Translations under genes and position numbers: made by a program
Origin: an uncultured Ruminococcus sp.
Lineage (GTDB): Bacteria > Bacillota > Clostridia > Oscillospirales > Acutalibacteraceae
Length of the DNA: 43,865 nucleotides
NCBI GenBank assembly: GCA_902776975.1
Contig: CACYSI010000006.1
Location: 1-43,865 of the forward strand
Direction: 5' to 3'
Shown: piece after piece, positions 11,912 through 30,115 of the stretch
Layout of the letters: each line of letters starts with the position of its first letter
How positions within the stretch are numbered: position 1 is the stretch's first letter
Notes under the pieces: generated by a model
Seen by the model: the letters and a program-made list of their open reading frames with translations, nothing else
Database searches by the model: none
Told to the model about the DNA's origin: nothing

Positions 11912-14044
11912 TTATTTAACACCCCTGATATACAAACCGTGGGTCATCCGTTCAAAATCAAGGTTTTCTCGCAGTTTTCGCATCGTTTTTTTCATCTTTT
12001 CCACAGAGTTTTCCACAGTGAAGTTGAAAATCGTGAAAACCTCTCCCCCGAGCTTATAATCCTTCTGCGGCATTAAAACAGGCACGCAGTTGTATATCTC
12101 ACAGTACCCTTCACGGCGTCGGATGATGAATTTTTCATCCTTCCTATCCTGCAAATATCCGTCATTTTTGCAGGATAACTCCGCTCCGGCAGGAGTATTC
12201 CTCGTTATCATCAAGGGCATGTTCCCGTATCTCATTATGCCCACGGGTATGCTCTTGTACAGTCTTTCTATCCTCTTGATATCCAGCTCACAGCTCAGCT
12301 CGGCGCTCTCTATGCCGTAGTTCTTTGCCCACATCAGCGTATAAGAATTGGCGATATTCATGCCGAAGCCCGCATGTACTCTGTACCCGAGCAGCTTGCC
12401 CATATAGACAGACGCGATATTGTTAGCGCGCAGCTCTGTCACACCGAGCGTTCTTAGAGCTTTCAGCCTCTCAAATACCTCTTTTTCGGTACCGAAGGTC
12501 ACTCTCGGAGCTTCAACGCCGATGTTATGACCGCTCCCGATCAGCGATCTGAGTCTGTCGCTGTCCTCAAGACCGTATATATCGACAAAGACCGTGTCCA
12601 TATCGCCGAGTCCCGATACAAGCTCCAAGCTCTGTACGACGGCGATCTTTTTATCCGATATCTTCTCTCCCCCGCTCAGCGCGTCGGAGATATCTATATC
12701 GTTTATCGTGTAATTATGACAGATTTCGCGCTCCGCGCCGAGCTGTTCCAGCGCCTCGCGCCTCAAAGCGTTAATTGCTGAGGCGGGAGCCGACGCGTCG
12801 GACGATATGTCATATCGTATATTTTTGATCTTAAAAGGCGTGTTGCCTGTTTTGCCGAGGTTCGCGGCGGCTCTCTCCTCAGTCAAGGGTACGTTGACCG
12901 CCTTCTCGACAATGTTTTCGGACTCGACCTCTGCGGTATGTATGCCGTCAGTGGCTTTGAGCCTCATTTTTTCACCTGTATGAGCGACAAAGTCAAAGCT
13001 GACCTCTACGCTCTTATACTCATCCTTATAGCCGGCGCGGATATCTTTGAGCAGCTTGCTGTCTGCCGACACCACGTCGCTCTTTTGTCTGTAGCCGAAC
13101 ATATCCCTGCCGAGCTTTCCTCTGAGATACCCGTCGGTAAAGCCTGTTCGTGAAAAGACCGATCTCAGCCTCTCCCCGGATCTCTCGGTCACAAAGCCGA
13201 GATCTCTCGCCTCTTTTGCGGCGCTCACAGCGGCGGCTACATACTCGGGACGCTTCATCCGCCCCTCTATCTTCGCGCTTTCTATGCCTATCTCCTCAAG
13301 CTCTCTGAGATAGTTCAGCGAGCCGTTGTCCTTAAGACTGAGCGCGTGATCGTTACCCTTATATCTCATAGGCAGTCTGCACGTCTGAGCGCACATACCG
13401 CGGTTTGCGGAACGTCCTCCGAGCATTGCCGAAAAGTAGCATTGTCCCGACACGCACATACACAGCGCGCCGTGTACAAAGACCTCCAGCTCCGCTTCGG
13501 GACAGGCTTCTCGGATCTCTCTGATCTCGTCCAACGAAAGCTCTCTCGACAGCACGACTCTCTCAAAGCCCATTTCATACAGAGCCTTAGCTCCGTAAGG
13601 CGTGTGCACCGAGAGCTGAGTAGACGCGTGCAGCGGCAGCTCAGGGACGGTCTTCTTTATAAGCGACACCAGACCTAAGTCCTGTATAATCAGAGCGTCT
13701 ATATCCGCTCTCGCCGCGGTCTTTACCAGCTCCAAAGCCTGCCGCATCTCGTCGTCAAAGATAAGGGTGTTCAGCGCCAGATGCACCTTTATACCTCTGC
13801 GGTGACAGTATCTGACGCACTCTTTCAGCTCTTCTTCGTCAAAGTTATGAGCCGACGCCCTCGCCGAAAAGCTCTTAGCCCCTATATATACCGCGTCTGC
13901 TCCGCTGTGAGCGGCGGCGATAACGCTGTCAAAGCCGCCCGCGGGCGCGAGTATCTCTATAGGCTGTCTTTTGATAGAGTCGTTTTTCTCAGTCTGAGTG
14001 ATCGTATTTTTTGATCGACCTTGTAGAAAAACCTTATTCTTCAT
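11912..14044 (-). CDS. U32 family protein (RlhA/TrhP-like) with C-terminal extension
   Basis: 710 residues. The N-terminal half is the U32 fold: EILAPAGGFDSVIAAAHSGADAVYIG, HASTQLSVH, and the cysteine cluster HGALCMCVSGQCYFSAMLG ... RGMCAQTCR, then AKIEGRMKRPEYVA. In E. coli, members with a similar DUF3656-type extension (RlhA) hydroxylate C2501 of 23S rRNA, and others (TrhP) hydroxylate tRNA uridine; the cysteines are thought to hold an iron-sulfur centre. Which reaction applies here is inference; the length favours the RlhA-like group. The start overlaps the end of the ZapA-like gene by 11 bp, a frequent pairing in Firmicutes, with no obvious ribosome binding site, suggesting translational coupling. 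Confidence 0.85.
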   Translation of the reverse strand: MKNKVFLQGRSKNTITQTEKNDSIKRQPIEILAPAGGFDSVIAAAHSGADAVYIGAKSFSARASAHNFDEEELKECVRYCHRRGIKVHLALNTLIFDDEMRQALELVKTAARADIDALIIQDLGLVSLIKKTVPELPLHASTQLSVHTPYGAKALYEMGFERVVLSRELSLDEIREIREACPEAELEVFVHGALCMCVSGQCYFSAMLGGRSANRGMCAQTCRLPMRYKGNDHALSLKDNGSLNYLRELEEIGIESAKIEGRMKRPEYVAAAVSAAKEARDLGFVTERSGERLRSVFSRTGFTDGYLRGKLGRDMFGYRQKSDVVSADSKLLKDIRAGYKDEYKSVEVSFDFVAHTGEKMRLKATDGIHTAEVESENIVEKAVNVPLTEERAAANLGKTGNTPFKIKNIRYDISSDASAPASAINALRREALEQLGAEREICHNYTINDIDISDALSGGEKISDKKIAVVQSLELVSGLGDMDTVFVDIYGLEDSDRLRSLIGSGHNIGVEAPRVTFGTEKEVFERLKALRTLGVTELRANNIASVYMGKLLGYRVHAGFGMNIANSYTLMWAKNYGIESAELSCELDIKRIERLYKSIPVGIMRYGNMPLMITRNTPAGAELSCKNDGYLQDRKDEKFIIRRREGYCEIYNCVPVLMPQKDYKLGGEVFTIFNFTVENSVEKMKKTMRKLRENLDFERMTHGLYIRGVK

Positions 14045-19827: not shown

Positions 19828-20017
19828 TCATTGCGAGGGCTCGACACGCGTGTCAGCCCGTGGCAATCTCAACCTTATAATTAATCGTCATTGCGAAGCA
19901 TTTATGCCGTGGCAATCTCAACCTATATTAATAGTCATTGCGAAGCATTTATGCTGTGGCAATCTCAACCTATATTAATAGTCATTGCGAAGCATTTATG
20001 CTGCGGCAATCTCAACC
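19828..20017. repeat. CATTGCGA repeat followed by three tandem 47-bp units
   Basis: 19828-19874 is a full CATTGCGAGGG...GGCAATCTCAACC copy with GACACGCGTGTC. At 19888-20017 three shorter copies (TCATTGCGAAGCATTTATGC...GGCAATCTCAACC) repeat with an exact 47-bp period, joined by TATATTAATAG. Each can form a hairpin with AGCAT/ATGCT at its tip. They occupy the region between gyrB and the zinc-ribbon genes. Confidence 0.85.
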
Positions 20018-20019
20018 GA

Positions 20020-20334
20020 TCATTTTTTATCGTCTTCTGTTTTCCTGAATTTTGTGAAAAACGGAATTATCAAATATATTATCAGTAAAAAAACCAGCGT
20101 CACCGCGAACAGCGGTATGATCTGAGCTTCTTTCATACTCGACAGCAAAATTATATTTATCACGATACACAATATGAGCGGGATCACAGCCCCGATCAGG
20201 ATACCCGGAAATATCTTTGCTCTGAATTTTTTATTACAGTGATAGCAGATATTGTCCTTATCCCTGATAGCCTTTTTAGTATCCTTATATCTGTATATCG
20301 TCCCGCAGTGCGGACAAACCGGCAGCCTGAACAT
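20020..20334 (-). CDS. Small zinc-ribbon membrane protein
   Basis: 104 residues, unrecognised. An N-terminal four-cysteine zinc ribbon (CPHCG ... CYHC, about residues 7-34) is followed by two TM helices (FPGILIGAVIPLILCIVINIILL and IIPLFAVTLVFLLIIYLIIPFF) and a short charged tail. It starts 1 bp after the preceding gene, whose first 90 residues have the same layout, so the two look like tandem paralogues. The function is unknown; location in the gyrB-recF interval suggests nothing specific. Confidence 0.75.
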   Translation of the reverse strand: MFRLPVCPHCGTIYRYKDTKKAIRDKDNICYHCNKKFRAKIFPGILIGAVIPLILCIVINIILLSSMKEAQIIPLFAVTLVFLLIIYLIIPFFTKFRKTEDDKK

Positions 20335-20335
20335 A

Positions 20336-20965
20336 TCAGCTGAATCTCGAGAAGTCGCGTCTGCCGTCGGACGCCGAGGATATATCCTTCAGATTACCTA
20401 CAGGCCTCGTCGCGCCCTTATCGCCCGAGCTCGATATATTTTCAAAGCGGTCAAAGCTCTTTGTGCCGCCGTCCGTGTCCTCAGCTACCTTGCGCTCGCC
20501 CTTGATAGCGTTGAAGACATCCGCGTTTATCACGGGCTTTGAGTCATTATCACCCAAAACTACATCATCCACAAAGGCGGGAGCCACCTTAGCCGACGAC
20601 GCCATGGTAGGATCGGGATCAGCCATGGGATTATTGACCATCTCCGTATCATACAGAGAATCCTGAAATTTTTTCTTAGGTCTTAGCCTGATGAATAAGG
20701 GCGATAACAAATAAAACAGCAAAAACGGTATGACTGCAAACAGCATAAACCACAGATTCTCTCTGTTTGTCATTATGAGATAATAGCCCAGGATTATCAG
20801 AGAGAATACCAACGCTCCGAAGAACAATACCCATATGCTTTTATTGATGTATATATTGGATTCTTTCTTACACTTATTACAGTAGTACTCTCCCCTTCTG
20901 CGGATCGTCAGACCCTTAAAGTAAGATATCTCTTTTCCGCAGTACGGACATCTGCAATTGATCAT
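20336..20965 (-). CDS. Zinc-ribbon membrane protein with disordered tail
   Basis: 209 residues, unrecognised. Zinc ribbon (CPYCG ... CNKC, about 6-33), two TM helices (about 44-66 and 71-91), then about 110 residues rich in S, D, G and N that appear disordered and cytoplasmic. The tail carries two related aromatic motifs, SFDRFENISS and DFSRFS at the very C-terminus, which could be partner-binding sites (inference). ATG at 20965 with AAAGGAA upstream. Operon with the smaller paralogue. Confidence 0.75.
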   Translation of the reverse strand: MINCRCPYCGKEISYFKGLTIRRRGEYYCNKCKKESNIYINKSIWVLFFGALVFSLIILGYYLIMTNRENLWFMLFAVIPFLLFYLLSPLFIRLRPKKKFQDSLYDTEMVNNPMADPDPTMASSAKVAPAFVDDVVLGDNDSKPVINADVFNAIKGERKVAEDTDGGTKSFDRFENISSSGDKGATRPVGNLKDISSASDGRRDFSRFS

Positions 20966-20990
20966 TTTTTATATTCCTTTCCTTATGTTA

Positions 20991-21090
20991 GCCTTCACCT
21001 CGGGGGGAAGGTGTCGCCGCCGATCAAGGCGGTGACGGATGAGGGGTCAACCTCTATGCAAAATCAATAACTCAGTGAGGCAGTCACTCA
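20991..21090. repeat. Divergent composite intergenic repeat
   Basis: CCTTCACCTCGGGGGGAAGG, CACCGCC-type inverted arms, GGATGAGG, and an ATAACTCAGTGAGGCAG segment related to 9022-9040 and 14848-14866. Non-coding spacer. Confidence 0.5.
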
Positions 21091-21125
21091 AATCGAATTA
21101 TCCCACCTCAACTATCCTCTCATCC

Positions 21126-21377
21126 TCACTCCGACATTCTCTTTATAAGCGTCGCTGTATTCAGCGGCGACAGATATACCGAGTACTCTCCGCCGAAGTC
21201 ATACAGGATATATGATTTAGGCAGTTCATAGCTTACATTCACTATCCTGTTCTCTTTTTCGCATATGCTCAAAAAGCTCCTCGTGTGCTTGCTGACGGTC
21301 GAGGTATCGAGATCGAATATCCCCACGATATTAGCTATCTCTATAGAGGTATCTTTACCGAGATGCAGATATTTCAT
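21126..21377 (-). CDS. remB: DUF370 / RemB-like regulator (YaaB)
   Basis: 83 residues, matching the size and position of B. subtilis RemB (YaaB) between recF and gyrB. Recognisable features: MKYLHLGKDTSIEIANIVGIFDLD, SYILYDFGGEYSVYLSPLNTATL. In B. subtilis RemB acts with RemA in biofilm matrix expression; its role here is inferred only from family. The start codon overlaps the recF stop (ATGA), indicating translational coupling. Confidence 0.85.
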   Translation of the reverse strand: MKYLHLGKDTSIEIANIVGIFDLDTSTVSKHTRSFLSICEKENRIVNVSYELPKSYILYDFGGEYSVYLSPLNTATLIKRMSE

Positions 21378-22474
21378 TCTCCGACCACCCCGTTTTCTAT
21401 GTAAAAAACCTTGCCCCTTTTCAGCTGCTCCTTGTTGCTCTCTTCACAGCAGGTCACAAAGACCTGATAGTCCTCTACCCTGTTGAGCAAAAAGTCCTGT
21501 CTGCTGTTATCAAGCTCCGACAGTACGTCGTCGAGCAGTATCACGGGTCTTTCTTCATTCTTTTTATACAGCAGCTCGGCTTCGGACAGCTTGAGCGACA
21601 GCACAGCCGATCTCTGCTGACCCTGAGAGCCGAAGCGTCTCGCCGATATGCCGTTGATCTTGAAGTCGAGATCATCGCGGTGAGGACCGACGGAAGTATT
21701 GCCCGTATGATAGTCCTCGCGGCGTGATCTTTTCAGCGCCTCGCTCAGCTTATCTCTCAGTGTGCCCTCATCGTCGTTTTCATCCGCTCCGCATGAGCAG
21801 ATACAGCATATCTCCAGCTCTTCTTTATCGCACGATATGCCCCTGTGATATTTCAAGGCGGGCTCTCTGAGCATCTTCAGATATTCAAATCTCTCTTTGA
21901 GTATCCGCGCGCCCACCACCGTCAGCGAATCATCCCAAATTGACAGGGTATCTTTAAGCTCGCTGTGCTTGTATATATCCTTCAAAAGCGCGTTTCGCTG
22001 ATTTATTATCTGATTGTATTTTGACAGAATCGAGGCGTATCTTATCCTTTGCTGACATATAGCCGCGTCCAGAAATCTGCGTCTGATATTAGGGCCTCTC
22101 TTGATAAGGCTCAGATGCTCGGGCGAGAACACAACAGCCGAGAAGACCTCGGTCAGATAAGACGACGAGCTTTTATCAACTCCGTTTATCCTTATCAGCT
22201 TTCGCCCTTTATCAAAGATTATCTCGGCTTCCTGCTCTCTTTCCTGTGAAAAGAACTTCATCCCGAGCTTAAAAAAGCTCTCGCCGAAGCGGATCATCTC
22301 ATTCTCTTTTGAGCCTCTGAAAGAGTGCCCTCCGCAGAACAGCCAGATCGCCTCCAGCAGATTTGTCTTGCCGTTGGCGTTCTCGCCGTAGATGACGTTT
22401 ACCTTGTCCGAGGGCGCTATCGAGCTGTCTTTCAGATTACGATACTTTTCAAAGCTAAGCTCACTTACCTTCAA
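21374..22474 (-). CDS. recF: DNA replication and repair protein RecF
   Basis: The 366-residue SMC-like ATPase loads RecA at single-strand gaps with RecO and RecR. N-terminal FEKYRNLKD, Walker A YGENANGKTNLLEAI, signature region FGSQGQQRSAVLSLKLSEA, Walker B VILLDDVLSELD. The start is TTG at 22474 with GAGG 6 nt upstream; it overlaps the S4-domain gene by 14 bp. Part of the dnaA-dnaN-yaaA-recF-remB block. Confidence 0.95.
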   Translation of the reverse strand: MKVSELSFEKYRNLKDSSIAPSDKVNVIYGENANGKTNLLEAIWLFCGGHSFRGSKENEMIRFGESFFKLGMKFFSQEREQEAEIIFDKGRKLIRINGVDKSSSSYLTEVFSAVVFSPEHLSLIKRGPNIRRRFLDAAICQQRIRYASILSKYNQIINQRNALLKDIYKHSELKDTLSIWDDSLTVVGARILKERFEYLKMLREPALKYHRGISCDKEELEICCICSCGADENDDEGTLRDKLSEALKRSRREDYHTGNTSVGPHRDDLDFKINGISARRFGSQGQQRSAVLSLKLSEAELLYKKNEERPVILLDDVLSELDNSRQDFLLNRVEDYQVFVTCCEESNKEQLKRGKVFYIENGVVGE

Positions 22475-22679
22475 TAGCGACCTCTACAGTTCTGCCGTCA
22501 TACTCGACCTTATCCCCCGGGCGGATCTTTTTACCTCTCATGGTACAGATCTCACCGTTGAGCTTTACCTCGCCCCCCTGGATCAGAAACTTAGCTCTGC
22601 CTCCCGAGTTGCACATACCGGCAAACTTCATCAGATTGTCGAGTCTTATATATTCTTCATCTATCTTGATTATTTCCAT
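22461..22679 (-). CDS. yaaA: S4-domain protein YaaA
   Basis: The 72-residue single S4 RNA-binding domain has RLDNLMKFAGMCNSGGRAKFLIQGGEVKLNGE and RGKKIRPGDKV. It occupies the conserved slot between dnaN and recF. In the family it is linked to ribosome assembly; exact role unsettled. ATG at 22679; I see no good ribosome binding site, so coupling with dnaN or a weak site is likely. A CCAACTA-like tract fills part of the 47-bp gap to dnaN. Confidence 0.9.
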   Translation of the reverse strand: MEIIKIDEEYIRLDNLMKFAGMCNSGGRAKFLIQGGEVKLNGEICTMRGKKIRPGDKVEYDGRTVEVAIEGK

Positions 22680-22726
22680 ATATACTAAATAACTACCAAC
22701 TAAAAACTACTAACTACTAACTATTA

Positions 22727-23824
22727 TCACTCCGCCGCTAATCTCATCGGAACAACGAGGAAGGTAAAGCTGTCGCCCGTCACGGGTCTTATTATCATAG
22801 GCTGCAAACTGCCGTTGAGCATCACCCTTACCTCATCCGTCTCGGCGTTCTTCAGAGCGTCGAGCAGATAACGGTTATTGAAGCCTATCTCAACATCGTT
22901 GCCGACTACCGAAGCGGGTATCATATCATTCGCCCTGCCGACAGTCGTCGAGCAAGAGAGCTTTATCTCATCGGCGGTGATGGAGCAGCGCACCGGAGAC
23001 TGTATCTTCTCGTTTGTAAGCAGCGCCATTCTCTCTACGGACGAAGCGAGTATCCTCGTGTTGATGACAAACTCGGTAGACGCCGACTCGGGCATCTTAT
23101 AGTCGAGGAAGTTTCCTTCCAGCAGCCTTGATATGATGCTGTAGTTCTCGACCTTGAATACTATATGACGCTGACCTACCGTCAGAGTGACGTCCTTCTT
23201 GGGATCGGTAATCAGCTTCAATATCTCATTCTGAGTTTTAGCCGGCACTACAAACTTAGCCTCTATATCACTGTCGACATTTTCCATCCTTATAGCCATT
23301 CTGAAGCCGTCAACAGCCACTACTCTGAAAATGCCGCCCTTTATCTCAAACAGCGAGCCTGTATAAATAGGCTTAGCCATATTATCCGAGGTAGCGAATA
23401 CCGTCTGTCTGATCATGTTCTTGAGTATCTCGGCGTTCACTGTCATGCCGTTGATCTCATCGACATTAGGCAGATCGGGATACTCTGTCGAGTTTATGCC
23501 TACTATCTGATAGTCCGCGGCTCCCGAATTTATATATGTTATCAGTCTTTCGTCAGTCTCGATATTGACTATCTCCTCGGGCAGCTTGCGGATGATATCG
23601 TTGAACAGCCTTGCCGATACTACGATCTCTCCCTCTTCTATGACAGTCGCCTCGATCTGTGTGACTATACCTATCTCGAGATCATAGCCCGATATCTCGA
23701 GATTACCGTTATACGCTTTTATGAGCACACCTTCAAGAGCCGGTATGGTAGCCTTAGCCGATACCGCTCTCGATACGTTAGACACCGCGTTTGACATATC
23801 TGTTCTCATGCATCTGAATCTCAT
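22727..23824 (-). CDS. dnaN: DNA polymerase III sliding clamp (beta)
   Basis: The 365-residue clamp encircles DNA and tethers polymerase and other partners. Three clamp domains are visible: MSNAVSNVSRAVSAKATIPALEGVLI, LEISGYDLEIGI, the central FPAK-like region FVVPAKTQNEILKL, and the C-terminal QPMIIRPVTG ... FLVVPMRL. ATG at 23824 with AGAGG upstream. It lies 298 bp from dnaA with an AT-rich spacer that may hold the unwinding site. Confidence 0.97.
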   Translation of the reverse strand: MRFRCMRTDMSNAVSNVSRAVSAKATIPALEGVLIKAYNGNLEISGYDLEIGIVTQIEATVIEEGEIVVSARLFNDIIRKLPEEIVNIETDERLITYINSGAADYQIVGINSTEYPDLPNVDEINGMTVNAEILKNMIRQTVFATSDNMAKPIYTGSLFEIKGGIFRVVAVDGFRMAIRMENVDSDIEAKFVVPAKTQNEILKLITDPKKDVTLTVGQRHIVFKVENYSIISRLLEGNFLDYKMPESASTEFVINTRILASSVERMALLTNEKIQSPVRCSITADEIKLSCSTTVGRANDMIPASVVGNDVEIGFNNRYLLDALKNAETDEVRVMLNGSLQPMIIRPVTGDSFTFLVVPMRLAAE

Positions 23825-24122
23825 ATTATTTACCTCTTTTGATTTAGTTAATAGTTGTTAGTCGGTGGTTGGTAGTTATTTTGATCACAGAAAGAAACAT
23901 CAGTCCACCTAACTGAAATGATATGATATTATTTATATTATAGTAATAGTAGTAGGGGGCGTTGAAATGAGGAAATCATCAATTCATCGCGTCATTACTG
24001 GATTTTTTTCCCATACTTCTCTCTAAACATTATGGAAATCTCGTCCTGTGATTTTCAACATATCAACTATTAAACATGACGTTGAAACCTCACATGTTTA
24101 TATCCATGGAAAACTACTAAAA
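23825..24122. other. dnaA-dnaN spacer: candidate oriC unwinding region
   Basis: No gene. Read on the + strand, an AT-rich stretch (about 23918-23940, ATGATATGATATTATTTATA) is followed by TAG-TAA-TAG-TAG-TAG (23941-23955), GGGGC (23956-23960) and GTTGAAAT (23961-23968), i.e. TTTCAAC on the minus strand. Further TTTCAAC copies lie at 24053-24059 (inside TTTTCAACAT, 24052-24061) and, inverted, at 24081-24087, with a weaker ATATCAAC at 24060-24067. The order box, GC cluster, trinucleotides, AT-rich matches the DnaA-trio unwinding element of B. subtilis. No TTATCCACA was seen. Confidence 0.6.
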
Positions 24123-25451
24123 CTATCTCTCTCTGATATTCTTTATGATATCCTCTACCGTAGCTCTGAGCGAAGGGTCTTTTCTGATCTCCTTCTCTAC
24201 CTGCTGTACGGTATAAACGATAGTCGAGTAGTGTCTGTTGCCGAACTCGTTGCCGATGCTCTCCATCGACAGAGTGGTCAGCTCTCTGACTATGTATATA
24301 GCTATCTGTCTTGGTTTGTTGATATTAGCTCTGCGCGATTTCTGAGATCTCAGGTCGTCGCTGTCTACCCCAAAGGTGCGGCAGACCTCGTCCACTATTT
24401 TCTCTACAGTCAGCTCCGGCGGAGTATCGTCGTTGAGTATTTCCGAGATGCTCTCGTTGACTATCGAGAGTGTCGGCTTTTCTTTTGTCAGATTATATCT
24501 CGCCATCAGCTTTTTGACCACGCCCTCGAGCTGTCTTATATTTGTTTTGAGCTTGTTGGCTATATAAGCGCACAGATCGTCGCTCAGATCGAGACCTATT
24601 ATCTCAGCTTTGCGCTTGATGATAGCCATGCGGGTCTCAAAGTCCGGCGCCTGGATATCGGCGAGCAGACCCATCTCAAATCTGCTCCTCAGTCTGTCTG
24701 TCAGCACCTTGATCTCTTTGGGAGGTCTGTCCGATGACAGCACTATCTGCTTTTTAGCGTCATACAAGGCGTCGAAGGTGTGAAAGAACTCCTCCTGTGT
24801 GCTCTCCTTGCCGCCGATGAACTGGATATCGTCTACCAGCAGTACGTCGGTCTGACGGTACTTTTGTCTGAACTGAGCGGTGGTCTTGTTGAGTATCGAC
24901 TGTATGATCTCGTTTGAAAAGTCCTCGCCCTTTATGTAGATCACTTTATAGTCCGGATGAGTCTTTCTGATCTCGTTGCCTATGGCGTACAGCAGGTGGG
25001 TCTTGCCCAGTCCCGAGTTGCCGTACAAAAACAGAGGATTGTAAGCGCTGGCGGGATTTTGAGCTACCGCGAGCGACGCCGCGTGAGCGAATTTGTTAGA
25101 CGAGCCTACTATGAAGGTATCAAAGGTGAATTCATATCCCGCGTCAGCGGAGGTCTCGTCGCCGAGCAGCCTTTCTTTTTGTTTTTCTCCTTCTTCCGGC
25201 AGGATGAAGATGGTCTCAAAGCTCGTCCCGAGCACCGCCTCATAAGCCTCTTCAAATCTCGACAGATATCCGCGTATCAAAGTCTGACGGTGAAACTCGT
25301 TAGGCACCATCAGAGTGATGAGTCCCTTTTCAAAGTCTATACCTACCGGAGTTATGCGTGATATCCAGGTATTATAAGCGACTTCGGCTATTTTCTTTTC
25401 CTGTCTGAGATAGTCGCAGATTATGCTCCATCCCTCGTTGAAATTTTCCAT
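24123..25451 (-). CDS. dnaA: Chromosomal replication initiator protein DnaA
   Basis: The 442-residue initiator. Domain I (about 1-80, WSIICDYLRQEKKIAEVAYNTWI), short linker, AAA+ domain III with Walker A GNSGLGKTHLL, Walker B LLVDDIQFI and the box VII-like arginine region LRSRFEMGL, and C-terminal domain IV. In domain IV the usual signature GGRDHTTV is GNRHYSTI (Arg406, His407, Tyr408, Ser409, Thr410), changing residues equivalent to E. coli Asp433, His434 and Thr435 that contact the DnaA box. ATG at 25451 with AAGGGG about 6 nt upstream. A DnaA homologue such as Hda is ruled out by full domain set and location. Confidence 0.96.
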   Translation of the reverse strand: MENFNEGWSIICDYLRQEKKIAEVAYNTWISRITPVGIDFEKGLITLMVPNEFHRQTLIRGYLSRFEEAYEAVLGTSFETIFILPEEGEKQKERLLGDETSADAGYEFTFDTFIVGSSNKFAHAASLAVAQNPASAYNPLFLYGNSGLGKTHLLYAIGNEIRKTHPDYKVIYIKGEDFSNEIIQSILNKTTAQFRQKYRQTDVLLVDDIQFIGGKESTQEEFFHTFDALYDAKKQIVLSSDRPPKEIKVLTDRLRSRFEMGLLADIQAPDFETRMAIIKRKAEIIGLDLSDDLCAYIANKLKTNIRQLEGVVKKLMARYNLTKEKPTLSIVNESISEILNDDTPPELTVEKIVDEVCRTFGVDSDDLRSQKSRRANINKPRQIAIYIVRELTTLSMESIGNEFGNRHYSTIVYTVQQVEKEIRKDPSLRATVEDIIKNIRER

Positions 25452-25747
25452 ATATTACCCCTTAAACTTTATTAAGAATACTATTTCAGTGTTATATATA
25501 ACAGTCAAATTATAATAAGCCCATAATCGTAAATTATTATATCAAATTTTCAACATAAAAGCAACCGATAATGTTGAAAAATAATATACATATATAAGTA
25601 TTATATATATACATATAAATGTGCATTATGACAGACCGATGATCTGTCTGATTGTGGTGCCGAAAAATCTTGATACAATATCTTGTGGTCACGTTTTTTT
25701 GCACATCTATCTTGTAAAAAAACATTATAAATAAGCGAAAATTTATA
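25452..25747. other. dnaA-rpmH spacer: AT-rich origin region
   Basis: Very AT-rich. It holds a perfect inverted pair TTTTCAACAT (25547-25556) and ATGTTGAAAA (25571-25580), spaced 14 bp, followed by a TA-rich stretch (25580-25620). One-mismatch relatives of TTATNCACA are TAATGCACA (minus, 25620-25628) and TTTTGCACA (25697-25705); TTATGCACC is at 25791-25799. A perfect TTATCCACA is absent. The dnaA promoter should be here, but I could not assign it firmly (TTGACT on the minus strand near 25500 is a candidate -35). Confidence 0.6.
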
Positions 25748-25776
25748 TTGACTAATAAGAAAAATTAAGCTATAAT
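25748..25776 (+). promoter_or_regulatory. Promoter of rpmH
   Basis: -35 TTGACT (25748-25753), 17-bp spacer, -10 TATAAT (25771-25776). Confidence 0.85.
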
Positions 25777-25816
25777 GCTAATTTGTAAGGTTATGCACCC
25801 GAAAGGAGGAGTTTAA

Positions 25817-25951
25817 ATGCTCAGAACATATCAGCCTAAGAAGATCCACCGCAAAAAGGAGCACGGCTTCAGAAAGAGAATGTCTACAAGCAACGGCCGC
25901 AAGGTTCTCTCCAGAAGAAGAGCTAAGGGCAGAAAGCAGCTGTCATACTAA
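25817..25951 (+). CDS. rpmH: Ribosomal protein L34
   Basis: The 44-residue basic protein reads [18 protein letters not shown] at the N-terminus and ends [12 protein letters not shown], matching L34 over its whole length. It is a large-subunit protein next to rnpA at bacterial origins. AAAGGAGG lies at 25802-25809, 7 nt before the ATG. Confidence 0.97.
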
Positions 25952-25958
25952 GATGATA

Positions 25959-25986
25959 AGGCCACTGTGGGCAGTGGTCTTTCTTT
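25959..25986 (+). terminator. Terminator or attenuator between rpmH and rnpA
   Basis: Nine-pair stem around CCACTG TGGG CAGTGG followed by CTTTCTTTT. It would limit read-through from the rpmH promoter into rnpA. Confidence 0.8.
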
Positions 25987-26123
25987 TCATTTACAGATAA
26001 ACACAAAAGTACGTGAAAACAGCGTCATATAGTGTATCATCCGCTTGTATCAGAGGCGGAGACTGTAGATATCCCACTCAGCCCTTACGGGCGTCGGCAG
26101 CTTATTACATTACCGGTGGTTAG

Positions 26124-26456
26124 ATGAAGTATACTACGATTACCAGCAACAGGGATTATCAGCGTATCTACCGCAGAGGCAGATCACTCGTGTCGCCTGT
26201 TCTCGTTACCTATGCGCTCAAAAACAAAAACAATAACCTTAGGATAGGGATAACCACCTCAAAAAAGGTCGGCAAGGCAGTCAGACGTAACCGCAGCCGC
26301 AGAGTCATCAGAGCGGCTTTCACAAATATCTCAGCTGATCTCGGCGCGCCGTATGATATCATTTTTGTGGCGCGTACCCGTACCTCGTACGTCAAGAGTA
26401 CCGAAGTTGAGAGATATATGCGCGAGCACCTGAACGCGCTCGGCATAGTTAAGTAA
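26124..26456 (+). CDS. rnpA: Ribonuclease P protein component
   Basis: The 110-residue protein partner of RNase P RNA, which matures tRNA 5' ends. The signature is present as [19 protein letters not shown], with the N-terminal [12 protein letters not shown] and the PYDIIFVAR strand. ATG at 26124 with GGTGG upstream. It is 1 bp from yidD. The 172-bp gap from rpmH is longer than usual and holds a terminator-like hairpin, so rnpA may have its own promoter. Confidence 0.95.
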
Positions 26457-26457
26457 G

Positions 26458-26688
26458 ATGAAATATCTACTGTTAAAGCTTATTCGTTTTTATCAGACTG
26501 CCATATCACCACATACCGGACCCAAGTGTAAGTACTATCCCACCTGCTCTCAATATACCTACGAGGCGATAGAGCGCTTCGGAGCGTTCAAGGGCGGCTT
26601 TATGGGATTATGGAGGATACTCAGATGCAATCCGTGGTCCAAGGGCGGCTACGACCCCGTCCCCGAAAAAAAGCATAAGCTCAGATAA
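26458..26688 (+). CDS. yidD: Membrane protein insertion efficiency factor YidD
   Basis: 76 residues with the family core [39 protein letters not shown] and [16 protein letters not shown], including the two conserved cysteines. It assists YidC-dependent membrane insertion. Its start follows the rnpA stop by 1 bp. Confidence 0.95.
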
Positions 26689-26743
26689 AGTATATTTACG
26701 GCTTTAAGAGAGCTTATGAAAGCTTTAAGAAAGGCTTTTTAGT

Positions 26744-27718
26744 ATGTTTACAGTTTTTAATTTTATCGGCAGCATATTCGGCTACATACTGTGGGCGGTA
26801 TTCTGGGTATTCCAGAACTTCGGTATCGCCATCATCGTTTTTACCCTGATATTCAGGGCTATACTGTTCCCCTCTTCTATAAAACAGCAAAAGAGCATGG
26901 CCGCCAACGCCTCTCTGCAGGCTAAGCAGAGAGAGCTCAAAGAAAAGTACGGCAACAATAAGGCTAAGTATAATGAAGAGATACAGAAGCTGTACGCAAA
27001 AGAGGGCGTGTCCCCTATGTCGGGCTGCGCTACCTCTCTCTTCCCCATGATCATAATGCTGGGCATCTACTACGCGGTAGTTCGTCCGCTGTCTAACGTT
27101 ATCCACCTCAGTTCTCAGGTCATAAACCAGCTCAACATGATCCCCGGCGTATATATGACTCAAAATAATATCTACTCTGAGATGAACGCGTTAAAGCTGT
27201 TCACTAACCCCGATAACATAGCCATGCTTACTCAGCAGGGTCTACCGGCAAAGGAGCTCTCCGAGATACACAATCTCGCCGGCGGCTTTAACTTTTTAGG
27301 TCTGGATCTTCTCTCTATCCCCCAGACAGAAGGCTTTAAATCCGCTATCATCATCATCCCGATCCTCTGTCTTGTTACCTCTTTAGGTTCGCAGATACTC
27401 ACCACAAGACTCAACGGCAGCCCCATGCAGAATCAGCAGGGATGCATGAAGTATATGCTCTATCTCCTGCCTCTGATCACGGTATACATCTCTTATATCG
27501 TACCGGGCGCTGTAGGATTTTACTGGATATGGTCGACCATATTCGGCTTTGTACAGACGGTGCTGATCAGTAAGTTCTATTCGGCGGCGCATATGAACGC
27601 CAAAGCCGAGGCGGAGCACATAGCTTTGATGGAGCTGAAGGAGGCTAAGGTACCGTATGACTATCAGCCGGTATCACAGCCGCAGCTCAACACTACAAAT
27701 AACAGTAAGAAGAAATAA
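26744..27718 (+). CDS. yidC: Membrane protein insertase YidC/OxaA
   Basis: 324 residues with about five TM segments. Features include the first core helix FGIAIIVFTLIFRAILFP, the cytoplasmic coiled-coil loop KQRELKEKYGNNKAKYNEEIQKLY, FPMIIMLGIYYAVVRPL, and the C-terminal helices YMLYLLPLITVYISYIVPGAVGFYW. The N-terminus starts directly with a membrane segment and has no lipobox, unlike B. subtilis SpoIIIJ. It inserts membrane proteins alone or with Sec. The gap to yidD is 55 bp. Confidence 0.95.
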   Translation: MFTVFNFIGSIFGYILWAVFWVFQNFGIAIIVFTLIFRAILFPSSIKQQKSMAANASLQAKQRELKEKYGNNKAKYNEEIQKLYAKEGVSPMSGCATSLFPMIIMLGIYYAVVRPLSNVIHLSSQVINQLNMIPGVYMTQNNIYSEMNALKLFTNPDNIAMLTQQGLPAKELSEIHNLAGGFNFLGLDLLSIPQTEGFKSAIIIIPILCLVTSLGSQILTTRLNGSPMQNQQGCMKYMLYLLPLITVYISYIVPGAVGFYWIWSTIFGFVQTVLISKFYSAAHMNAKAEAEHIALMELKEAKVPYDYQPVSQPQLNTTNNSKKK

Positions 27719-27735
27719 CTATAGAAGGTGTCAAA

Positions 27736-28524
27736 ATGTTAAGAGAAGCAATCGGTACAGGCGCTACGGTCGAAGAGGCTAAAGAGGCCGCCTTCAAGGA
27801 GCTCGGCGTCGATACTTATGACGAAAACCTTGAGATCGAAGTGCTCGACAGAGGAGCTAAAAAGGTGCTCGGTCTGTTCGGCGGCAGCCCCGCTAAGGTA
27901 AAGGTCAGCATCAAGGTCTCGGCTACACAGTCGGCTGAGGATTATATAAAGAACATCATCGACAATATGGGTCTGAGCGGTATCACCGTGACTTCATCGG
28001 TAGATGACAACGTCATCACCATAGATATCGAAGGTGACGACGTAGGCTTCATCATCGGCAGACGAGGCGAGACCCTCGACGCTCTGCAGTATCTCGCCTG
28101 CCTCGCGGCTAACCGTATCGACAACTCATATAAGAGAGTAGTCATCAACACAGGCGACTATCGCGAGAAGCGTGAAAAGACCCTCGAGTCTCTCGGTAAA
28201 AGGAGAGCTATCAAGGCAGCCAAGACAGGCAGAAAGGTAGTTCTCGAGCCGATGAATCCCTATGAACGCCGTATCATCCATACGGCTGTGCAGCAGGTAA
28301 ACGGAGCTACCTCCTGGAGCGAGGGCGAGAACATGAACCGTCATGTCGTCATCGGTCCCGACGGCAAGAACAGAGAGTATAACAACAGAGGCAGAGGCGG
28401 CAGACGCGGCGGCAATTACGGCAGACGCAATTCCAAGCCGAAGCAGTCACCCGCTCCCAATCCCGACCGTAAACCGCTCAACGAGGGCGGAGAGTTCGGT
28501 CTGTACGGCAGAATAGATAAGTAA
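27736..28524 (+). CDS. jag: RNA-binding protein Jag (KhpB)
   Basis: 262 residues: Jag-N domain (GTGATVEEAKEAAFKELGV, then DRGAKKVLGLFGGSPAKV), a linker, KH domain with GRRGETLDALQYL, R3H domain (PMNPYERRIIHTAVQ), and a Gly/Arg-rich tail (NRGRGGRRGGNYGRR). The partner of KhpA in RNA binding and cell elongation in other Firmicutes. ATG at 27736 with AAGGTG upstream; 17 bp from yidC. Confidence 0.93.
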   Translation: MLREAIGTGATVEEAKEAAFKELGVDTYDENLEIEVLDRGAKKVLGLFGGSPAKVKVSIKVSATQSAEDYIKNIIDNMGLSGITVTSSVDDNVITIDIEGDDVGFIIGRRGETLDALQYLACLAANRIDNSYKRVVINTGDYREKREKTLESLGKRRAIKAAKTGRKVVLEPMNPYERRIIHTAVQQVNGATSWSEGENMNRHVVIGPDGKNREYNNRGRGGRRGGNYGRRNSKPKQSPAPNPDRKPLNEGGEFGLYGRIDK

Positions 28525-28530
28525 GAATTA

Positions 28531-28555
28531 ACGGGCGGTCATCCGCCCGTTTTTG
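28531..28555 (+). terminator. Terminator after jag
   Basis: ACGGGCGG TCAT CCGCCCGT followed by TTTTG. Confidence 0.9.
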
Positions 28556-28578
28556 ATACCATCCTTTTTTGATTTATA

Positions 28579-28730
28579 CTAATTTCAATTAAAACGCTTA
28601 AACAAGATATTTGCGGAAAATTTCGCAGAGCAAGGCGGAGATCGCAGGCAGGCTGGCGCCTGTCAAGATTGACAACGCAGCTATGCGGAATTTAACGCAA
28701 TAGATGTTAAAGGGTTTTATTTGAAATTAG
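28579..28730. mobile_element. Complete 152-bp MITE-like element (copy 2)
   Basis: Bounded by imperfect inverted repeats: CTAATTTCAATTAAAACGCT at the left and, read from the right end inward, CTAATTTCAAATAAAACCCT. The last 60 bp equal 94-153. Flanks show TA on the left and AT on the right, so a TA target duplication is not proven. It carries no reading frame and ends 17 bp before the mnmE ATG, where an ATG inside the repeat end (28721) could be mistaken for the start. Confidence 0.65.
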
Positions 28731-28747
28731 ATTACAGGTATATTAAT

Positions 28748-30115
28748 ATGAACAACAAAACTATAGCGGCTGTATCTACCGCTAAGGCGAGCGCCGGTAT
28801 CTCGGTCATCCGTGTATCGGGCGACGGGGCGATAGATATATCAGATAAGATATTCAAGTCTAAGTCCGGTACTAAGCTGAGTGATATGAAGGGCTATACC
28901 TGCGCTCTCGGCGATGTATACACAGGCGGCGAGAGGATAGACGAGTGTATCGCGACGGTGTTCAGAGAGCCTCACAGCTATACGGGTGAGAATGTAGTGG
29001 AGCTGTCCTGTCACGGCGGAGTATATGTCACAGCGGCGGTACTTAGAGCGGTGCTTGACGCGGGCGCTCAGCCCGCGCAGGCGGGAGAGTTCACAAAGAG
29101 GGCTTTTCTGAACGGCAAGCTCGATCTGATAGAGGCTGAGGCTGTCATGGATATCATCAGCTCACGCTCAAAAGCGTCGGCAAGAGCCGCCCTTGAGATC
29201 AAGGACGGAGCTCTCTCCGAGAGGATAGACGGTATAAAAGCAGTTCTGCTCGATAAGGCGGCTCATCTTAACGCATGGGCGGATTATCCCGAGGAGGATA
29301 TACCCGAGATAAGCTCGGAGGAGCTGATATCCGCTCTCACTAAAGCCGGGAAAGAGCTTGACGATATCATTAAAAGCTACGATAACGGTCGTATACTGAA
29401 AGACGGTATAGATACCGTGTTAGCGGGCAAGCCCAATGTAGGCAAAAGTACGCTGATGAATCTTCTCGCAGGCTTTGATAAGAGCATAGTCACATCTGTC
29501 GCGGGTACTACCAGAGATATAGTCGAAGAGTCAGTGGCTCTCGATGATATCGTGCTTAATCTGAGCGATACCGCGGGCATAAGGACAACAGGCGACGAGA
29601 TAGAGAGCATAGGCGTAGAGAAGGCTCGCGCTAAGCTCGAGACAGCGGCGCTGATCCTGTGTGTATTCGACTCATCAAAGGAGCTCAGCGACGATGACAT
29701 GGAGATCATCGACTCAGCCGCGGACGCTCCGTCGATAGCGATAATCAACAAGACCGATCTGCCGTCAAAGTTAGATGAAGAAAAGCTGAAGGACAAGTTC
29801 AAAGAGATCGTGCGTATGTCGGCTAAGAACTCCGACGGCGTCAGGGAGCTTATCGAGGCGATAAAGCGTGTGTACGCGGTATCGGATCTGGATTCAAACC
29901 TGACTCTTATATATAATGAGCGACAGCGCAGTCTGACCATAAACGCAAGGAATTGTGTACATGAAGCTATCGAAGCACTAAATATAGGGATGACCTTTGA
30001 CGCGATAACCGTCAGCATCGAAGAGGCTATAGCTTATCTCTGCGAGCTGACAGGCGAGAGAGTCACCGACGAGGTAGTGGACAGAGTGTTCCACAACTTC
30101 TGTGTAGGTAAATAA
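28748..30115 (+). CDS. mnmE: tRNA modification GTPase MnmE
   Basis: 455 residues. N-terminal tetrahydrofolate-binding domain (TIAAVSTAKASAGISVIRVSG, YTGENVVELSCHGG, RAFLNGKLDLIEAEAV), helical domain, inserted G domain (GKPNVGKST, VAGTTRDIVEE, DTAGIR, NKTDL) and the C-terminal FCVGK with the conserved Cys. With MnmG it makes the 5-carboxymethylaminomethyl group on U34 of tRNAs. I start at the ATG at 28748 because the upstream in-frame ATG at 28721 lies in the MITE-like end and adds residues foreign to the family. Confidence 0.96.
   Translation: MNNKTIAAVSTAKASAGISVIRVSGDGAIDISDKIFKSKSGTKLSDMKGYTCALGDVYTGGERIDECIATVFREPHSYTGENVVELSCHGGVYVTAAVLRAVLDAGAQPAQAGEFTKRAFLNGKLDLIEAEAVMDIISSRSKASARAALEIKDGALSERIDGIKAVLLDKAAHLNAWADYPEEDIPEISSEELISALTKAGKELDDIIKSYDNGRILKDGIDTVLAGKPNVGKSTLMNLLAGFDKSIVTSVAGTTRDIVEESVALDDIVLNLSDTAGIRTTGDEIESIGVEKARAKLETAALILCVFDSSKELSDDDMEIIDSAADAPSIAIINKTDLPSKLDEEKLKDKFKEIVRMSAKNSDGVRELIEAIKRVYAVSDLDSNLTLIYNERQRSLTINARNCVHEAIEALNIGMTFDAITVSIEEAIAYLCELTGERVTDEVVDRVFHNFCVGK

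Follow-up and report, generated by a model that had tools for sequence, protein, structure and literature searches.

The window (the whole stretch of DNA that was analysed, 43,865 nucleotides) carries dnaA (24123-25451, minus strand; 442 aa; Pfam PF00308, PF08299, PF11638) and dnaN, the sliding clamp gene (22727-23824, minus strand; Pfam PF00712, PF02767, PF02768), separated by a spacer at 23825-24122 whose minus strand is the dnaA-to-dnaN reading direction. By reading, gyrB- and recF-like frames lie to the left (minus strand) and rpmH-, rnpA- and yidC-like frames to the right (plus strand), which we take to be the classic neighbourhood of a replication origin. GC skew, which a sequence-only reading of this DNA had put forward as a check, is negative leftward and positive from near 28 kb, and its cumulative curve within the window is lowest at 27504. 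That reading had placed an unwinding element of the DnaA-trio kind between dnaA and dnaN, and the Pfam assignments confirm both genes.

Elements of the dnaA-dnaN spacer

On the minus strand the spacer presents, in order, ATTTCCTCA and ATTTCAACG, CCCC, CTACTACTATTACTA and AT-rich DNA. The first two are degenerate candidate DnaA boxes in tandem, co-oriented and with one base in common: the upstream one, box #6-like (23968-23976, minus strand), has 3 mismatches to TTATCCACA and the trio-proximal one, box #7-like (23960-23968, minus strand), has 4. They form a tandem co-oriented pair, each member of which is of poor quality. The GC spacer separating box from trio (23956-23959, minus strand) is 4 bases long. 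The DnaA-trio array beyond it (23941-23955, minus strand) has its trio bases on the plus strand, where GAT GAT GAT AAT GAT, read from the 3' side, makes five consecutive 3'-NAN-5' units beside a box, with GAT favoured; an array is taken to have at least three. The plus-strand letters, TAGTAATAGTAGTAG at 23941-23955, GGGG at 23956-23959 and CGTTGAAAT at 23960-23968, are as originally described. What had been overlooked is the tandem partner ATTTCCTCA: the trio-proximal box is indeed non-canonical, but it does not stand alone.

The AT-rich stretch beside the trios, at 23916-23940, is a candidate duplex-unwinding element. The 27-mer at 23922-23948 and the 40-mer at 23916-23955 are each the second least stable of their length in the window, so that by these two measures easily melted DNA does lie on the far side of the trios, where an AT-rich flank had been pointed out; at a length of 60 bases the proposed opening site falls outside the eight least stable segments. 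The least stable 27-mer, at 25585-25611, is upstream of dnaA and is weaker than the proposed opening site.

Further boxes are found up the spacer (TTTTCAACA, 24052-24060, plus strand; GTTTCAACG, 24080-24088, minus strand) and upstream of dnaA, on the oriC1-like side (TTTTCAACA at 25547-25555, plus strand, and again at 25572-25580, minus strand); one TTTTGCACA occurs among the dnaA-flanking regions of the window, at 25697. CAAC-type boxes occupy most of the clear sites of the origin, and the departure from the canonical form, correctly noticed on the trio side, is not peculiar to it. An extra ATTTCAACG at 25436-25444 falls within the first dnaA codons and may be a by-product of the conserved peptide MENFNEGW. 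Between the distal and proximal boxes, at 24011-24035, lies an imperfect dyad CCATA...TATGG (CCATAATG...GAGAAGTATGG) that can be aligned between the window and 25 relatives (L001-L026 minus L011) and could be a regulator site.

A pattern for the trio run that allows Y at two sites, CTACTAYTAYTACTA, has one match in the 2,140,305-base genome, which is the one described here, and its reversed control has none. (A looser combined pattern, YMACNNNNNCTACTAYTA, likewise has this site as its sole match, yet its reversed control gives 3+3 matches, and that search yields nothing beyond chance.) TTTCAACR occurs 7 times in the window against 2.00 expected, a number reached by none of 100 shuffles; five of these sites lie in the two intergenic regions flanking dnaA, one in the first dnaA codons and one at 1736. 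The longer TTTTCAACR has 74 copies in the genome (reversed control 32), and the 663 bases of the two dnaA-flanking intergenic regions hold 3 where genome density predicts about 0.02. TTWTCCACA has 35 genome copies (reversed control 21), with window copies at 11997 and 12009 and none in the two dnaA-flanking intergenic regions.

Conservation among relatives

A search with DnaA gave 80 named relatives, the nearest 31 of which (L001-L031) are Ruminococcus-like or Clostridia, many from rumen or gut. With the window they make a closest clade of 32 loci, 31 of whose spacers are readable; L011 ends at a contig edge and, with L077, is too short for spacer comparison. Conservation of the arrangement in close relatives had been named in advance as a test that could refute the proposal, and the arrangement is conserved: box, gap and trio follow one another on the minus strand, in the order likened to that of B. 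subtilis and with a 4-base gap, in all 31 readable spacers, window included. The distance from the module to the dnaA stop ranges over 167-531 bases across the clade while the box-trio gap is fixed at 4, and the first trio lies 45-191 bases from the dnaN start (a measure restricted to the window and L001-L031; the dnaN start is misplaced in some distant loci, L051, L059, L060 and L068 among them). In the 31 clade spacers the mean information per base peaks in the trio (1.85 bits) and the proximal box (1.53 bits); it is 1.15 for the GC gap, 1.06 for columns -24 to -14, which hold the upstream box, and 0.82 for the 16 bases past the trio, and it drops to 0.40-0.55 in the outer flanks.

The proximal slot is filled by ATTTTAACA in 7 of 31 spacers, by ATTTTCACA in 6, by ATTTCAACA in 5, by ATTTCAACG, ATTTCCACA and TTTTCCACA in 2 each and by single variants in 7. 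TTTTCCACA (L017, L019) and ATTTCCACA (L016, L020) are near-canonical. The tandem slots occupy positions -21..-13 and -13..-5 from the first trio, and in each of them positions 4 (T) and 8 (C) are invariant (31/31); the A at position 7 of the proximal box is kept in 30/31, the exception being L024, where the slot holds AATTTCTCG, a sequence 6 mismatches away from TTATCCACA that hardly qualifies as a box. In L037, a more remote relative, the slots, gap and trio read TTTTCCACC-GTTTCCACC-GCCC-CTACTA, close to canonical. The near-canonical forms in relatives and in L037, together with the invariant positions, favour reading the slots as homologous to ordinary DnaA boxes. The heptamer of the window is best read, on this comparison of sequences, as a drifted DnaA box, an assignment that had begun as a guess from one sequence and now has the clade behind it.

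Under a published rule (PMC8287927), a box may depart from TTATCCACA, or from a species-specific motif, at no more than 2 positions and must lie within 16 bases of the trios. Measured against TTATCCACA, the best box of the window has 3 mismatches and so falls outside the rule, which 16 of the 31 clade members satisfy. Measured against TTTTCAACA, the proximal box shows 2 mismatches (a hand count), a comparison that is partly circular because the motif comes from the same origin. (In practice, box-first searches with TTATCCACA undercount unwinding modules, since 15 of the 31 members of one clade fail with the module plainly there.) The boxes of the lineage can be written roughly as NTTT(C/T)(A/C)ACR, those of the window's own origin being mostly of the TTTTCAACA type.

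In-phase CATNN pentamers follow the trios in the window (23913-23925, minus-strand CATATCATTTCAG) and stand at the same place in many of L001-L028. At least three in-phase units are present in 22/31 clade spacers (0.35% in shuffles) and only 2 in the window (p 0.06); arrays of at least three units were found in none of 164 other loci, on either strand. The array was rejected as an origin-specific element: the four-unit pattern occurs in 10 of 60 genus genomes, and 5 of 28 loci lie beside a trio run. Several four-unit loci away from trios adjoin hairpins, as judged by eye.

Of 150 genomes from the genus at large, 53 contain a strict module pattern and 97 do not (among the 75 good genomes, 26 contain it), and the reversed control occurs in 16 of 150 by row count; the trio run holds in the closest clade, but the exact run is not universal in the genus. 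Strict-pattern loci sit 158-439 bases after the dnaA frame in 29 of 30 cases (the other, L316, is a short locus), and the same distance check applied to L001-L031 as positive control finds 29 of 31, missing L011 and L024. Thirty of the 97 genomes without the pattern were sampled by DnaA search, which gave 29 dnaA loci (G862 gave no DnaA). On a lenient reading, 26 of these 29 have a box-like slot, 4 bases and then CTACTA, CTAATA or CTATTA, with later units or the box altered; L328, L342 and L350 have no such arrangement. (One relatives search had matches in 139 of 147 genomes, from which 120 stretches were taken.) In nine loci (L327, L329, L330, L332, L335, L336, L339, L341, L347) the third trio unit is CGA for CTA, placing a central cytosine on the trio strand, which fits the reported tolerance of B. 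subtilis, in which cytosine can stand in for the central adenine (PMC10721633). In L183, L184, L185 and L190 the DNA past dnaA is, by reading, not dnaN-like, and the vicinity lacks TTWTNNACA boxes; dnaA seems to have moved out of the origin neighbourhood in these four, and absence of the module there, given that the DNA past dnaA is not dnaN-like, says little.

Trio-reading and box-reading residues of DnaA

Aligned with 8btg, the DnaA of the window keeps Asn187, Ile190 and Arg264 (B. subtilis numbering). Asn187 is the residue in contact with the trio's central adenine, and strand separation depends on Ile190 and Arg264 (PMC10721633; roles drawn also from PMC8287927). In domain IV the signature GNRHYSTIV replaces GGRDHTTV, and its RHYST is common to the window and L001-L031. 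The base contacts R399, P423, D433, H434, T435 and H439 (E. coli numbering) are conserved in Firmicutes and E. coli (PMC7561715). The corresponding residues of the window DnaA are R, E, H, Y, S and Y: one of six is kept (R399), the rest being changed as P423E, D433H, H434Y, T435S and H439Y, and the canonical residue set for reading TTWTNCACA is not present. Drift of this kind is not unique to the window. An order-wide set of 201 loci yielded 196 usable DnaAs (L053, L130, L140, L161 and L191 lack a DnaA frame), of which only 12 have P423, R432, D433, H434, T435 and H439 all together; position 433 is occupied by D (122 loci), H (61) or N (13).

Around dnaA in the 33 nearest His/Tyr loci (window, L001-L031, L089), TTWTCCACA occurs 32 times against 0.5 expected and TTWTCAACA 31 times against 1.3 expected; with both so strongly enriched, this clade is relaxed or mixed at box position 6. 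Across 225 loci sorted by DnaA residues 433/434, an anchored pattern is found in 51/61 His/Tyr, 43/126 Asp/His, 3/23 His/His and 1/13 Asn/His loci. Among the 51 His433/Tyr434 cases, position 6 of the trio-anchored box is occupied by A (32), C (17) or G (2); among the 43 Asp433/His434 cases, by A (9) or C (34) (Fisher p 2e-5, relatedness ignored). Five Asp/His loci of the same genus (L333, L334, L349, L350, L352) also use CAACA around dnaA (CA 10, CC 0), which implies that the swap at 433/434 is not the sole cause, if it is a cause at all.

DnaAs with Asn433 occur at L099, L108, L109, L133, L137, L141, L143, L145, L149, L156, L164, L201 and L202. At these 13 loci box position 6 is A 48 times against 5.3 expected and C 6 times against 1.3 expected, with A over C in 13/13 and a single TTWTCCACA among their origin boxes, at L145. 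On a FastTree tree about 6 changes are counted; an independent-pairs test of the Asn433 loci has one supported pair (6 on all branches), which puts significance out of reach. Outside the order, 9 loci have such a DnaA, and three of them, L236, L237 and L240, combine Asn433 with TTWTCCACA. A one-residue code linking 433/434 to a base was rejected, given CAACA in the five Asp/His loci and TTWTCCACA in L236, L237 and L240. A column scan finds weak association in numerous columns, contact positions 423, 435 and 433 included, as relatedness would give. Residue drift and box drift are accordingly treated as an association. We put forward only tentatively, at somewhat less than even odds, that the DnaA of this lineage prefers TTTTCAACA over TTATCCACA, with A at position 6, and that initiator and origin may have drifted together through P423E, D433H, H434Y, T435S and H439Y with the trio side fixed.

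The probable opening module, its precedents and its alternatives

Basal unwinding systems (BUS) have been predicted in 1755 of 2070 origins, a tandem co-oriented box pair being their commonest arrangement (57%) and the GC-rich region between box and trio averaging 4 bases (PMC8287927). With the BUS of B. subtilis oriC (PMC8287927, PMC10721633, PMC6669920) the window shares tandem co-oriented boxes, a short gap, 3'-GAT-5' trios and AT-rich DNA, as well as the location in the dnaA-dnaN spacer and Asn187, Ile190 and Arg264 of DnaA. What sets it apart is a pair of boxes with one base in common, 3 and 4 mismatches away from TTATCCACA, and a DnaA whose box-contact residues are replaced. C. difficile oriC2 has the same first 15 trio bases, CTACTACTATTACTA (the run is quoted as CACCTACTACTATTACTACTATGA), a C-containing gap, a dnaA-dnaN spacer location and a bipartite-looking origin, and its spacer with that run shows DnaA-dependent melting (PMC7561715). 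On the other hand, the C. difficile DnaA has canonical contacts and its boxes were searched as TTWTNCACA, whereas five of six contacts differ in the window and the boxes are mostly CAAC-type. A start of the domain IV recognition helix that is changed along with a shifted DnaA box has been described in Epsilonproteobacteria (PMC5043019); both the box there (in H. pylori, T at position 5 matters) and the residues are other ones, the shift in the window being mainly at positions 6 and 3. Literature searches returned nothing on a drifted box pair or replaced DnaA contact residues in this lineage, no match for Ruminococcus with DnaA box and oriC or for TTTTCAACA as a DnaA box and, on residue-level DnaA box contacts, nothing beyond work already known. 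The kind of system is a known one, and we take the drifted boxes and replaced contact residues to be what is new.

The DNA between dnaA and dnaN is very probably where the chromosome first opens for copying, laid out as in B. subtilis but with drifted docking sites and drifted residues for reading them; we put the probability that the site is a BUS of the B. subtilis type at roughly 0.86. What has been observed is the order and spacing of the elements, their strand and conservation, a trio run unique in the genome, a weak duplex and conserved trio-reading residues. Against the reading count the poor boxes (3 and 4 mismatches), the absence of the strict pattern from 97 of 150 genomes and its reversed control in 16, the three of 29 sampled loci that have no such arrangement, the lower frequency of the anchored pattern with DnaAs of types other than His/Tyr, and the less stable DNA elsewhere. 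By analogy with B. subtilis, DnaA would dock on the two tandem co-oriented boxes (23960-23976, minus strand), and a filament of ATP-DnaA would grow over CCCC onto the plus-strand trios (3'-GAT-5' three times, then AAT and GAT), whose central adenines would be captured by the conserved Asn187/Ile190 surface. The AT-rich DNA at 23916-23940 would then open toward dnaN, with the distal boxes of the spacer and those preceding dnaA helping to gather DnaA, and helicase loading would follow. A 355-aa protein with two DnaD-type stretches is encoded directly upstream of a 330-aa ATPase (G000:C9; L265 1955-4029) that scores above the cut-off of NF005304 (ATP-binding protein), with the DnaI model below its own cut-off. 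The two are likely to be the helicase-loading pair of this genome, making the Firmicutes loading route plausibly available. The DnaD recognition element consists of 5'-TnnT-3' pairs on the strand opposite the trios (PMC10201434); by reading, minus-strand CTACTACTATTACTA, which lies opposite the trios, contains TACT repeats.

Runs resembling the trio array occur nearby (about 22680-22722 and 23850-23880), and the reversed control of the looser combined pattern matches at least as often as the pattern itself, so that the TAG/TAA run might be thought one more TAC/TAG-rich intergenic simple sequence with a box-like heptamer beside it by chance. That CTACTAYTAYTACTA has a single genomic match speaks against coincidence, and the retention of trio register, 4-base gap and box in 31/31 clade spacers, with the outer flanks not retained, argues strongly against it; recent common descent alone is an unlikely source of this retention, given how poorly the flanks are conserved, and we regard chance as scarcely credible. 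A dnaN promoter or other regulatory site, in place of an unwinding element, is very improbable. In its favour, the conserved DNA is AT-rich and lies upstream of dnaN, and the region has weak promoter-like matches (8 against 5.2 expected), one of them, at 24058-24029 on the minus strand, just upstream of the module; however, the distance from first trio to dnaN is variable within the clade, no minus-strand sigma-70-like match lies over the trio, no Rfam family reaches gathering score within 20000-28800, and box, gap and trio are in the known BUS order.

Two further possibilities accept unwinding and reassign part of it. The main opening might occur upstream of dnaA, at 25460-25620, a region that holds both the weakest 27-mer of the window and the two TTTTCAACA boxes at 25547 and 25572, and the dnaA-dnaN module might be secondary; the unique trio run is in the other spacer, however, and C. 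difficile melts on the dnaA-dnaN side (PMC7561715), which leaves this arrangement improbable. Alternatively, the module may be real but its proximal ATTTCAACG decayed and non-binding, the work being done by ATTTCCTCA or the distal TTTTCAACA boxes. Strand separation in B. subtilis needs the upstream box only, the downstream one lowering the amount of DnaA needed (PMC8287927), and L024 holds the scarcely box-like AATTTCTCG in this slot. Against decay, the proximal slot is better conserved (1.53 bits) than the columns with the upstream slot (1.06), and we consider a dead proximal box unlikely, if less so than the preceding possibilities. The preferred reading is still that of a BUS with both boxes of the pair in use.

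This origin shows that the trio half of the bacterial opening module can be kept nearly unchanged even as the DnaA boxes drift, along with the protein surface by which they are read. With D, H and N all found at position 433, the order offers a natural set of variants in which to study how DnaA recognises its box. If initiator and origin have indeed drifted together, the two would form a naturally occurring pair, in part isolated from canonical DnaA, and a search by the published BUS rule with TTATCCACA would overlook it.
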